This document shows, one piece after another, positions 12,199 to 33,983 of a stretch of 39,420 nt of DNA. The first letter of the stretch is position 1, and the number at the start of each line of letters is the position of its first letter. The stretch spans positions 1 through 39,420 of the forward strand of contig JALONO010000017.1 of the NCBI GenBank assembly GCA_025454895.1, read 5' to 3'. The notes under the pieces were generated by a model. That model was not told the origin of the DNA. It searched no databases and was given only the letters and a program-made list of their open reading frames with translations. Origin of the DNA: Bernardetiaceae bacterium. Lineage in GTDB: Bacteria; Bacteroidota; Bacteroidia; Cytophagales; Thermoflexibacteraceae. The translations under genes were made by a program, and so were the position numbers.

Positions 12199-12428
12199 GC
12201 GGTGGGGTTGACTTTGGTAAACTCTCTTTTTGCTAGAAGAGAGGGAATTAAACAATAAATCGTTACTTATTTTTCAAATATTGAAAATGAATGAGTTATA
12301 AAGGTTTTGTCAATAGAAACGAATAGTAAAATTCATCTATATAAAGATAAGCATTAAACAGATACCCAAAAGGTTTGATCAAAAGCAATGGATGATTAAT
12401 CGCTATTGCCTTATCTGTATGAAGCAAA
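12199..12428. other. AT-rich spacer upstream of the isoprenyl synthase
   Basis: About 230 bp, strongly AT-rich against its GC-rich surroundings. It must carry the promoter of the minus-strand isoprenyl synthase, but no exact TAnnTTTG box stands out. No gene is seen. Confidence 0.4.
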
Positions 12429-12505
12429 AACTAAATTTAAATGGTGAATTTGTCATCTTATCAATGATTGATAAACAACAGAGAGGGTCATTTAATTACT
12501 CATTC
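12429..12505 (+). repeat. R1 copy A1 (partial, tandem with A2)
   Basis: Degenerate copy of the R1 interspersed element. CTAAATTTAAATGG aligns with the R1 left part (CCAAAATCAAATGG) and AATGATTGATAAACAA with its middle. It joins head-to-tail with copy A2 and keeps the same reading phase. Confidence 0.6.
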
Positions 12506-12608
12506 ATGCCAAAATCAAATCAAGATCGCGCATTTTCTATCCTTGAAATGAAGGATAATCAAATAGAACAATCATTTAATCATGCAATCATTTTAGCATC
12601 ATTGATAT
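12506..12608 (+). repeat. R1 copy A2 (near full length)
   Basis: About 103 bp. It begins ATGCCAAAATCA and contains GATAATCAAATAGAACAATC and TCATGCAATCATT, the most conserved R1 blocks; the right end is worn (TTGATAT). The R1 reading phase is open here (MPKSNQDRAF... to a TAA at 12611), with no proof of expression. Confidence 0.8.
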
Positions 12609-17810: not shown

Positions 17811-17888
17811 GGTGGGATCGGAAAAGGCGGGTTTTGAACGAAAATACGAAGTTAAGACTCGTCAAAAATCTAGTGGGCAAGAGGTCTA
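17811..17888 (+). repeat. decayed R2 element fragment
   Basis: GCCAGGGTGGG at 17815 and the stretch to GCAAGAGGTCTA (17877-17888) align with the minus-strand reading of the intact R2 element at 33711-33916: same order of gccagggtggg, a gaacgaaaat-like segment, then the exact 12-bp terminal repeat. The other end is not recognisable. It directly abuts R1 copy B. Confidence 0.6.
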
Positions 17889-17970
17889 TTGCAGGTTCCT
17901 AATGCGGTAAATGACTGATAAACAAGTAGAAAAATCATTTAATCAAGCAACTATAAGGTCATTTAAGATT
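17889..17970 (+). repeat. R1 copy B (left end missing)
   Basis: Contains AATGACTGATAAACAAGTAG, AAATCATTTAATCAAGCAA and the right end TCATTTAAGATT. The left R1 end is replaced by the R2 fragment that ends at 17888. The right end overlaps the last codons and stop of meaB. Confidence 0.75.
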
Positions 17971-18991: not shown

Positions 18992-19097
18992 GTACGCCTG
19001 CTTAGATGTAAAGGTGATAAAAAGCAGGTTTAAGGGAATGGAAGATCGACGGTTGATAGCGTTACAAGATGTTGGTTCGTGTATTTGCGCTGAAGTA

Positions 19098-19199
19098 ATA
19101 CCAAAATCAAGTAGCGACTGCGCATTACACGTGCTGTAAATAATTGACAACCAAATAGAACAATCATTTGATCATACAATCATTAAGTCATTTTAGTAT
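19098..19199 (+). repeat. R1 copy C (full length, 102 bp)
   Basis: Complete reference copy. Left end ATACCAAAATCA, right end TCATTTTAGTAT; the reverse complement of the right end (ATACTAAAATGA) matches the left end at 10 of 12 positions. The middle holds GTGCTGTAAATAATTGA and AACAATCATTTGATCAT. Both ends carry TA just outside the CCAAAATCA/TCATTTTAG core, suggesting TA target duplication. Confidence 0.85.
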
Positions 19200-19291
19200 A
19201 ACTCGATGATTGCGTATGCAAATGATCTTTGTGATTGATTATCAGCTATTTTACGTAATTTATATAGGTGGTCTTTATTTGATTTTGGTAT
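19200..19291 (-). repeat. R1 copy C2 (diverged, tail-to-tail with copy C)
   Basis: Read on the minus strand from 19291 it begins ATACCAAAATCAAATAA and contains GCTGATAATCAATC and ATACGCAATCAT. Its right end meets copy C's right end, giving a tail-to-tail pair. Divergence is high, yet its R1 reading phase has no stop (IPKSNKDHLYKLRKIADNQ...). Confidence 0.7.
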
Positions 19292-19483
19292 TACTTCCTG
19301 GGCACCACCGCCTGCCACGCCCGGCGATGGGAGGGCGGTGAGATACGAACCGGTGCGCGGGCGGGCGGGGGCACGGGAACTTGCGTGTACCCCGGACAGC
19401 ACCGTACCGTCGTTGGCCATGAAAACGCTCGGCTTCCGGCGCAGAACAGGAAATTATGATAGTGATAAAGCATTGATTTTCAA
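19292..19483. other. GC-rich spacer between R1 copy C2 and mnmE
   Basis: About 190 bp, markedly GC-rich between an AT-rich repeat pair and the mnmE stop. Open frames cross it on the minus strand, but their translations are Arg/Pro/Ala/Ser-rich and unlike real protein. I see no gene, tRNA or terminator for mnmE. Confidence 0.4.
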
Positions 19484-26301: not shown

Positions 26302-26378
26302 CGCCTATCCACAATCACCGCCCTGGCGCTCCATAAATGTCCCGAACCGCGTAATTTTACCGATCAAACGCGCCTTCG

Positions 26379-26441
26379 GTTTAAATGATTGAATATCGTA
26401 CAAAACAATCATTTGATCATGAAATCATTAAACAATTGAAA
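26379..26441 (+). repeat. R1 copy F (right two thirds) at the uxaA start
   Basis: AAATGATTGAATATCG and AACAATCATTTGATCATG match the R1 middle; the right end has decayed to CAATTGAA, and the next ATG is the start codon used for uxaA. The R1 reading phase is open and in frame with uxaA. Confidence 0.75.
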
Positions 26442-28094
26442 ATGAGCACCAAAGTCCTCAAAATCCACCCGGCCGACAACGTGGTGGTGGCCCTGGCCGA
26501 TCTGCGCCCCGGCGAGCAAGTTCGTTATGCCGACCAAACCTATCAAGTGCGGGAGTTGATCCCAGCCAAACATAAATTTGCCATCGAGGCTTTTGCCCCC
26601 GGCGATGCGGTTACCATGTACGGCGTGTTGGTGGGCCGGGCCACCCAGCCCATTGCCGAGGGCGGGCTGATCTCCACCCAAAACCTGAAACACGCGGCCC
26701 AGCCTTACCAACTCGGGGCCCGCCACCTCGCCTGGCCCCAACCCGAGGTGAGCCGGTTTGCCGGACGCACTTTCCTGGGCTACCACCGCGCCGACGGCCG
26801 GGTGGGCACGGCCAACCATTGGCTGGTAGTGCCCCTAGTGTTCTGCGAAAACCGCAACCTCAACGCCGTGAAAGAAGCCCTGGTCAAAGAACTTGGCTAT
26901 GCCACGGGTCAAAATTATGCCCTGGACGTGCGCGGGTTGGTGCAGCAGTACCAAGCCGGGGCCAACCTGGATCAACTGCTGGCCGCCGATATTCTCCTAG
27001 ACCAGCAACAACGCCAGGCCCAGCGGCTGTTCCCCAACGTGGACGGCATCAAGTTCCTGAACCACGAGGGCGGCTGCGGCGGCACCCGGCAAGACTCCGA
27101 CGCCCTCTGCGGCTTGCTGGCCGGCTACATTACCCACCCCAACGTGGCTGGGGCCACCGTGCTTAGCCTAGGTTGCCAGCACGCGCAAGTGGGTATTTTA
27201 ATGGACGAGATCAAGAAGCGCGACCCCCAATTTAACAAACCGCTTTACGTACTGGGCCAGCAAGAAAGTAAGTCGGAACCCGACTTTGTGGCCGAGGCGG
27301 TGAAAAAGACTTTTGCTGGGCTGGTGCAGGCTAACCAGAACGTCCGCCGCCCGGCCCCGCTGAGCAAGCTGTGCGTGGGGCTGGAATGCGGCGGCTCCGA
27401 TGGGTTTTCCGGCATTTCGGCTAACCCGGCCATTGGCCACGTGGCCGATATGCTGGCCGTTTTGGGCGGCACGGCCATTTTGTCGGAGTTCCCGGAATTG
27501 TGCGGGGTGGAGCAAGAGCTGAGCGATCGCTGCGTGAGCGAAGCGGTGGCCAACAAGTTTATCGGTCTCATGCGCGCCTACGAAGCGCGGGCCTTCGAGG
27601 CTGGTTCGGGGTTCGACATGAACCCTTCGCCGGGCAATATCAAAGACGGCCTCATCACCGATGCCATCAAGTCGGCCGGGGCGGCCAAGAAAGGCGGTAC
27701 CTCGCCCATTACCCAGGTGCTCGATTACCCGGAGCGGTCCACCGAGCCGGGTTTGAACCTGCTTTGCACCCCCGGCAACGACGTGGAAAGCACCACCGCC
27801 CTGGCGGCGGCGGGCTGTAACCTCATTTTGTTCACCACCGGGCTGGGCACGCCTACGGGCAACCCGGTGGCCCCCACGCTCAAAATCGCCACGAATTCCA
27901 CCCTGGCCCGGCGCATGGCGGATATTATTGACGTGGACGCGGGCACCATCATTACCGGGCAAGACAGCATCGCCAGTAAGGGCGAGGAAATCCTTGAACT
28001 GATGATCAAGGTAGCCAGCGGCGAAGTGGTGGCCAAAGCTGTGGCTCTGGGGCAAGACGATTTCATTCCCTGGAAACGCGGGGTTTCGTTGTGA
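26442..28094 (+). CDS. uxaA: UxaA-family altronate dehydratase-like enzyme
   Basis: Sugar-acid dehydratase of 550 residues with an N-terminal SAF domain (about 5-80; LKIHPADNVVVALADLRPGEQVRY) and the C-terminal UxaA catalytic domain: GYHRADGRVGTANHWLVVPLVFCENRN, NHEGGCGG near 212, LGCQHAQ, GLECGGSDGFSGISANPAIG near 315 and the C-terminal TTGLGTPTGNPVAPTLKIATNS. This set fits altronate or galactarate dehydratase, part of hexuronate/hexarate catabolism. No other uronate genes are nearby, so the physiological substrate is uncertain. The start at 26442 (MSTKVLKIHP) matches the family; a longer in-frame start at 26385 would add 19 residues from repeat R1 copy F. Confidence 0.88.
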   Translation: MSTKVLKIHPADNVVVALADLRPGEQVRYADQTYQVRELIPAKHKFAIEAFAPGDAVTMYGVLVGRATQPIAEGGLISTQNLKHAAQPYQLGARHLAWPQPEVSRFAGRTFLGYHRADGRVGTANHWLVVPLVFCENRNLNAVKEALVKELGYATGQNYALDVRGLVQQYQAGANLDQLLAADILLDQQQRQAQRLFPNVDGIKFLNHEGGCGGTRQDSDALCGLLAGYITHPNVAGATVLSLGCQHAQVGILMDEIKKRDPQFNKPLYVLGQQESKSEPDFVAEAVKKTFAGLVQANQNVRRPAPLSKLCVGLECGGSDGFSGISANPAIGHVADMLAVLGGTAILSEFPELCGVEQELSDRCVSEAVANKFIGLMRAYEARAFEAGSGFDMNPSPGNIKDGLITDAIKSAGAAKKGGTSPITQVLDYPERSTEPGLNLLCTPGNDVESTTALAAAGCNLILFTTGLGTPTGNPVAPTLKIATNSTLARRMADIIDVDAGTIITGQDSIASKGEEILELMIKVASGEVVAKAVALGQDDFIPWKRGVSL

Positions 28095-33091: not shown

Positions 33092-33127
33092 GTGGCCAGT
33101 GGTAAAATGTTGGCGATGAAAACCTTC

Positions 33128-33190
33128 TACTAAAATGATTTTATGATTGCCAGAATAATGGTTGTTCTCCTTGGTTATCAATAGAGTTTT
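33128..33190 (-). repeat. R1 copy H (left part unclear)
   Basis: On the minus strand: TATTGATAACCAAGGAGAAC, GGCAATCATAAAATCATTTTAGTA. The right end is intact; the left part is degraded and may extend to about 33228, where an R2-type fragment starts. Confidence 0.7.
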
Positions 33191-33231
33191 TGTGTGTTGA
33201 TAATGAGCATCTTAGCTTAATTCGGAGGAAG

Positions 33232-33314
33232 CCCCTCCCCGACGGACGACCAAAAGCGAATGAGCTTTTGGGGCGAGCCTGTGTGATGGCTTGGGGTGGG
33301 GCCAAGACGGGCGG
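33232..33314 (-). repeat. R2 internal fragment 1 (inverted relative to the intact element)
   Basis: CCCCTCCCCGACGGACGACC, the hairpin CCAAAAGC-GAATGA-GCTTTTGG (33250-33271), GGGGCGAG and GGTGGGGCCAAG repeat the interior of R2 in the opposite orientation. Terminal repeats are absent. Confidence 0.7.
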
Positions 33315-33379
33315 GTAAAACAGCTTTTTTGCAATGAAGCTCACTCAAAAATGTATTTATAGAAAAAAATATAAATTTC

Positions 33380-33460
33380 GCTCTTTTTGGCCCCACCCTG
33401 GCCAACCGCACTTTCTCGCCCAAAAACTCTCGTTTTTGTCGTCCGTTGGGCAGGGGCGAT
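33380..33460 (+). repeat. R2 internal fragment 2 (diverged, same orientation as the intact element)
   Basis: CGCTCTTTTTGGCCCCACCC, TGGCCAACCGCACTTTCTCG and GTCGTCCGTTGGGCAGGGG follow the order seen in the intact R2 element at 33775-33855, with many substitutions. Terminal repeats are absent. Confidence 0.65.
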
Positions 33461-33610
33461 CCGTTCTGTTTTCCGTCCGGTTGGTCAAAGGGAAAGTCCC
33501 CTCTCCGAGAGGGGATTTAGGGGTGTGTCGGCGGCCAGAGCGACCAGCCAATCGGTTTGTTCTTTTTCGGGCAAATTCAAGGCTTTAGGAAGAACGGATC
33601 ACCCCTGCCC
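33448..33610. repeat. long inverted repeat enclosing a GC-rich hairpin
   Basis: A 20-bp arm at 33448-33467 (GGGCAGGGGCGATCCGTTCT) is mirrored with one mismatch at 33591-33610. The enclosed 123 bp contain a perfect 8-bp stem, CCCCTCTC-C-GAGAGGGG, at 33498-33514, followed by ATTTAGGGGTG. Possible RNA structure or element remnant; no ORF of note. Confidence 0.6.
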
Positions 33611-33710
33611 GACGGGGAGGGGACGCAATTTTGAAGCGCGTAGGAGGTGGCAGACAAGAGGCCAGCTTAAGTCAACTGCCTGATTTTCAATATGCATAAA
33701 CTCTAATTAT

Positions 33711-33916
33711 TAGACCTCTTGCAGATTAGGTTTTTGGCCGGGTGAAAGCCCGGGATTTTCGCTCGAAATTCGCCCTTTTTTGGCCCCACCCTGGCCAGCC
33801 GCACTTACTCGCCCCAAAAGCTCACTCGCTTTTGGTCGTCCGTCGGGGAGGGGACGCAATTCCGGGCCTAGAAAGGGTAATTTGGAAGGATTTTAATCTA
33901 ATACGCAAGAGGTCTA
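33711..33916 (+). mobile_element. R2: 206-bp MITE-like element with 12-bp perfect terminal inverted repeats
   Basis: TAGACCTCTTGC (33711-33722) and GCAAGAGGTCTA (33905-33916) are perfect inverted repeats, extending imperfectly to 22 bp (19 matches). The inside has no ORF but a GC-rich core with the hairpin CCAAAAGC-TCACTC-GCTTTTGG (33814-33835) and ggccccaccctggcc. The ends include TA, compatible with TA target duplication as in some DDE-transposase elements. It lies within R1 copy J. No transposase gene is in the window, so movement would need one supplied elsewhere. Confidence 0.7.
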
Positions 33917-33959
33917 TTTACAGCACCAGCAACCCGCAATTCTAATTTAATTTTGGTAT
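33917..33959 (-). repeat. R1 copy J, left part, interrupted by R2
   Basis: Read on the minus strand from 33959: ATACCAAAATTAAATTAG, TTGCGGGTTGCTGGTGCTGTAAAT, where the R2 terminal repeat begins. On the far side of R2 (about 33672-33710) degraded sequence resembling the R1 right half (ATCAGGCAGTTGACTTAAG) continues. Confidence 0.7.
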
Positions 33960-33983
33960 TGGTACTTCCGTGCTAAAAACAAA

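Follow-up and report, generated by a model that had tools for sequence, protein, structure and literature searches.

The short elements BOX, RUP and SPRITE of Streptococcus pneumoniae are described as bunched and mutually inserted (PMC10969869), and the three short families treated below, R1, R2 and R4, resemble them in this mutual nesting. The insertion sequences ISPsy8, ISPa11, ISPpu9, ISPpu10, ISRm22 and ISRm19 have been reported to insert specifically into REP sequences (PMC1525189). R2 and R4 are like them in being mobile elements found recurrently within another repeat family; whereas the REP-targeting insertion sequences are reported as specific, R2 positions are spread over R1 and show no within-region preference for it (PMC1525189). 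For bacterial IS5 elements, an ANT target duplication has been reported (PMC4482050). A literature search on nested bacterial MITEs and on the R2 end yielded no description of R1, R2 or R4, which is no proof of absence, and for the R2 end it returned only apparently unrelated titles. The sequences of BOX, RUP and SPRITE are, we presume, unrelated to R1, R2 and R4.

The window, 39,420 nucleotides in length, is a whole contig of the 4.58-Mb draft genome of a Bernardetiaceae bacterium (389 contigs). A profile model (HMM) of R1 was built on 104 aligned copies. With this model, the minus-strand copy J of R1 was found as two parts, 33961–33916 (model 2–47) and 33182–33125 (model 49–107), and the features of this locus and of a second contact at 17.8 kb are as follows.

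33919–33961, minus strand: R1 copy J, 5' part, model about 2–44 (to 47 with 33916–33918); R1 HMM, 22.6 bits
33916–33918, no strand: R2 target duplication ATT, right copy (R1 sequence)
33712–33915, no strand: R2, a 204-bp MITE-like element; paired ends, R2 HMM 175.8 bits
33779–33853, plus strand: R3, G+C-rich interior block of R2, common to R4; profile match
33709–33711, no strand: R2 target duplication ATT, left copy
33705–33711, minus strand: 7-bp R1 remnant AATTATT (R1 consensus AATCATT) between R4 and R2; from sequence, rejoined R1 J aligns across it
33705–33707: R4 target duplication AAT, right copy, inside the 7-bp R1 remnant
33183–33704, no strand: R4, a 522-bp MITE-like element with an end family other than that of R2; paired ends, target duplication AAT/AAT
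33386–33456, plus strand: second R3 block within R4, an inverted pair with the first; profile match
33232–33305, minus strand: R3 block within R4; profile match
33180–33182, no strand: R4 target duplication AAT, left copy (R1 sequence)
33125–33182, minus strand: R1 copy J, 3' part, model 49–107; R1 HMM, 30.6 bits
17780–17887, minus strand: truncated R2 (model 1–108), left end missing; 54.1 bits
17888–17968, plus strand: R1 copy B from model position about 24, starting with ATT, the expected R2 duplication; R1 match 17864–17968 and sequence

The 5' part of R1 J breaks off at GTGCTGTAAAT, abutting the R2 end at 33915, and the ends of R2 33712–33915 score higher as R2 ends than any other position in the window; the preliminary description was right that R1 J stops exactly at the R2 terminus (33916 against 33915). 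It had also stated that R1 resumes past the other R2 end, which is true as far as it goes: seven R1 bases follow, then the second element R4, and the distal half of R1 lies beyond R4. The span it had given (33672–33959) accordingly covers R2 and its contacts, with R4 and the distal R1 half outside. When the flanks are rejoined, R1 J becomes a single near-complete match (model 3–106, 71.1 bits) in place of halves scoring 22.6 bits (33961–33916) and 30.6 bits (33182–33125), and this, together with the exact target duplications, bears out the nesting of R2 in R1. R1 J was thus split twice, by R4 and by R2, the starts of the two target sites being four bases from each other once R1 is rejoined. 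Directly observed are the structures, their duplications, the reunited R1 copy and the recurrence of such arrangements over the genome; the locus is an ordinary, well-resolved case of nested MITEs.

Two readings of the R4 side were tried and rejected. The flank beside R2 is not merely decayed R1, R4 being a family apart, with ends and a duplication of its own, and the R4 ends are not decayed R2 ends: scored as R2 ends they rank 625 and 35 among 78,796 positions, yet they match one another. Judged by its end sequences, R4 is a family distinct from R2, and the preliminary description had missed it. At 17.8 kb, the decayed R2 end was correctly said to abut an R1 copy B that lacks its left end; the truncated R2 terminates in AGACCTCTTGC at 17887, the third-best R2-end score of the 78,796 window positions scored, and R1 sequence begins at 17888. 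All three of the R2 or R4 copies found within the window are in contact with R1.

We consider it very probable that three MITE-like families account for these structures, R1 having come first and R2 and R4 later at ANT sites that R1 supplied, with a mover that we infer to be of IS5 type. R1 would have spread first and would already have been present in the intergenic region of R1 J; R4 would then have entered an AAT of R1 J and R2 an ATT four bases away, in either order, each insertion duplicating its own 3-bp ANT target. An IS5-family transposase acting in trans would have mobilised R2 and R4, and R1 copies would have been struck often through their supply of ANT sites and not through recognition. 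R1 J gives a clean relative insertion order for short element families for which no description was found, and clearly records jumps that came one after another.

R1, R2 and R4 are all short, lack a transposase and are represented by tens to hundreds of copies. The ends of R2 are AGACCTCTTGC(AG)ATTAG and CTAAT(AC)GCAAGAGGTCT with the inverted termini AGACCTC/GAGGTCT, and 80 paired copies of 74–636 bp were found in 121 records that together hold 1.66 Mb of this genome. In 64 of these 80, the same three bases, mostly ATT or AAT, stand on both sides. R2 is accordingly a MITE by its inverted terminal repeats, many copies, absence of a transposase gene and 3-bp duplication of fixed length; even its largest copy (636 bp) is too short to encode a transposase of about 280 amino acids. 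The preliminary description had proposed TA-rich sites as the target of R2, for which the flanks substitute ANT (ATT, AAT, rarely ACT), not TA. R4 has the ends AGAGTTTTTGTGTGTTGATAATGA and TTTTCAATATGCATAAACTCT with the inverted terminus AGAGTTT; AGAGTTTTTGTGTGTTGATAATGA and AGAGTTTATGCATATTGAAAATCA match one another, unlike the ends of R2. At up to 3 mismatches, 49 left and 38 right R4 ends were counted genome-wide (reversed patterns, 0), and the flanks are identical in 23 of 28 paired copies, so that R4, too, has the inverted ends, the many copies and the target duplication of a MITE. R3 was rejected as an independent element: paired R2 or R4 elements contain 76 of its 90 matches, and 13 of the remaining 14 have a loose R2 or R4 end at most 250 bp away. 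In one case (L105 11820–12295), the loop of this hairpin-like interior block, common to R2 and R4, has taken up an R2.

R1 is about 108 bp long, with the ends TACCAAAAT/ATTTTAGTA and an apparent TWA duplication, and gave 254 matches, 134 of them near complete, in the rejoined 1.64 Mb. The 3-bp flanks at the TWA position are identical in 45 of 86 near-complete copies, which exceeds shuffled pairing. R1 therefore shows the MITE features of inverted ends and target duplication, less strongly than R2. A non-mobile R1, that is, a conserved regulatory or RNA element that is a common intergenic feature by chance, would fit its very many copies (358 first-look candidates), their considerable divergence and the presence of R1-like repeats in a sister genus. 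It appears very unlikely to us in view of the inverted ends and correlated TWA flanks of R1 and of an Rfam search of the window that gave 0 matches. Moreover, the sister-genus relative (G001; 10 matches scored, three read) carries its own inverted ends, of the TATACTAAA type, around the common core TTGTAAAT-ATTGATTATCAAATAGA. R1-like elements are thus not limited to the source species. The three G001 sites read (L183, L187 and L189) are near-identical, and the repeat has perhaps been active there more recently.

Among 389 other genomes of the order, a search for exact matches to the R2 end gave none; such matches were found in at least 61 stretches from many cyanobacteria and some other organisms. 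In Myxacorys californica (L190 2772–3716), paired R2-type ends with an ATT/AAT-type duplication enclose 945 bp with IS5-type transposase sequence, and in Nodosilinea (L238 4950–5909) a 960-bp element with the same kind of ends and duplication contains an IS5-type transposase that is apparently broken; a further IS5-type transposase gene lies within a longer, 2175-bp end pair (L217). The cyanobacterial transposases within R2-type ends match NF033581 and PF13359; among annotated plasmid sequences, the nearest matches are transposases of the IS5 family, some bearing the label ISMae4 or IS702. These IS5-family elements with AGACCTCTTGC ends share with R2 the terminal 11 bases, ATTA-type subterminal bases and the ATT/AAT (ANT) duplication, and differ from it in carrying a transposase. 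The group of the IS5 family that we propose as the source of R2 is presumably ISL2. Short transposase-less elements with AGACCTCTTGC ends (79–245 bp) occur in cyanobacteria such as Drouetiella and Leptolyngbya; they agree with R2 in ends, in type of duplication and in being too short to hold a transposase, and they are mostly of other sizes and belong to another phylum. The 79-bp form is present in several copies in Drouetiella (L216, L220, L235, L242 and L246).

The source assembly, a draft of 389 contigs, gave no PF13359 match, no significant match to the cyanobacterial transposase and no IS5-type transposase bounded by R2 or R4 ends, which in so fragmented an assembly does not prove that there is none; its one PF01609 match belongs to an unrelated element with other ends. 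The mover of R2 is therefore inferred from another phylum: R2 would have been mobilised in trans by an IS5-family enzyme like that of the cyanobacterial elements. R4 may have been moved by the same kind of transposase, going by the analogous duplication and the shared interior. With R2 ends that match cyanobacteria and no partner transposase found here, a cross-phylum origin becomes testable. A bolder version, in which R2 and R4 burst in a single species of the order under an IS5-family transposase of the type that cyanobacteria now have, acquired across phyla and since lost, the R4/R2 stacks in R1 are fossils of that burst and R4 modestly prefers R1, seems doubtful to us.

The preliminary description had suggested from the two contacts that R2 prefers R1 as a target. 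Insertions were tabulated from 98 paired R2 and R4 copies, of which 6 were dropped for flanks agreeing at fewer than 2 of 3 bases (leaving 92) and 2 as nested, and the usable set of 90 comprises 74 R2 and 16 R4 insertions; the counts do not include single-ended R2 copies such as that at 17.8 kb. Over the 1.66 Mb, R1 hosts 26 of the 74 R2 insertions, and the contacts are to this extent more than coincidence. R1 makes up about 1.4% of the sequence and 20.0% of weighted intergenic ANT sites, and the insertions in R1 are two-fold over this share (p = 0.0003). A test per region, which sets each insertion against the ANT sites available in the intergenic region that holds it, took the place of a pooled 500-bp local control; it leaves out 7 R2 and 1 R4 located in ORF-like sequence, by gene calls that are crude (longest ORFs). 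Conditional on the intergenic region, 26 insertions in R1 were observed and 26.4 expected (odds 0.96, 95% 0.49–1.88), a result that was stable over two ORF cut-offs and three R1 thresholds. An R1-specific preference of R2 is not supported, and R2 differs in this respect from target-specific elements of the REP-targeting type.

For R4, 7 of the first 16 copies lay in R1 where 4.3 were expected (p = 0.013), these being all 7 of the copies in informative regions. This apparent preference weakened when 10 further copies, picked by their ends alone, were added (11 of 26 in R1, 8.4 expected, p = 0.10). Three R1 copies hold R4 and R2 within 30 bp of each other, where 1.0 was expected. Is R1, then, a specific insertion hot spot for R2 and/or R4, as REP is for some IS elements? 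The 26 of 74 R2 and 11 of 26 R4 insertions in R1, the two-fold excess over the global intergenic ANT supply, the first R4 sample and the three shared copies would suit this explanation, and we nevertheless hold it to be unlikely: R2 shows no within-region excess, the enlarged R4 sample gave 11 against 8.4 (p = 0.10), positions within R1 are distributed as its ANT sites are (chi-square p = 0.77), and R1-bearing regions take more insertions outside R1 as well (18 of 47 against a site share of 0.223, p = 0.010), exceeding R1-free regions. The simplest reading of this last excess is that regions tolerating one element tolerate the next. Because R1 is A+T-rich, dispensable, intergenic and the holder of about one fifth of intergenic ANT sites, it would be hit often without being recognised. 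A mild preference for R1, above all of R4, may exist, since the global enrichment is two-fold and the first R4 sample was in R1 in every informative region. More generally, common intergenic space and a short target motif can make one repeat seem to prefer another as its target.

That R1 is the older family, as the preliminary description held, follows from two observations. No R1 match lies inside any paired R2 or R4, against about 15.4 expected naively for R1 inserting at TWA sites, and R1 copies diverge from their consensus by 23% on average, R2 copies by 14%. The corresponding 7.5% for R4 is biased low because its copies were chosen with at most 3 mismatches. R4 lies inside R2 once (L141 4000–4571) and R2 inside R4 once (L100 5936–6498), and a further R4 (L320 3029–3311) interrupts what looks like an R2 end; from this mutual nesting, the activity periods of R2 and R4 seem to overlap.

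The 7 bp between R2 and R4 in R1 J, and two other R1 copies in which R4 and R2 lie close together (L129 and L147), could be taken to mean that the two elements entered R1 J jointly, as a single composite unit. Each has its own exact 3-bp duplication, however, the intervening bases are R1 sequence, and in rejoined sequence the spacing at the three loci varies (4, 22 and 8 bases), which makes joint entry extremely improbable; separate insertion of R4 and R2 into a resident R1 is the reading we retain. In the other two copies, both elements lie within R1, at L129 12026–12610 (22 bases apart) and L147 131–695 (8 bases apart, both rejoined). Elsewhere in the window, R1 copies also occur in adjacent pairs, head to tail at 12425–12599 and tail to tail at 19096–19293, and an R1 copy at 26374–26432 overlaps the first codons of a long ORF (26385–28094), the listed start of which may be wrong.
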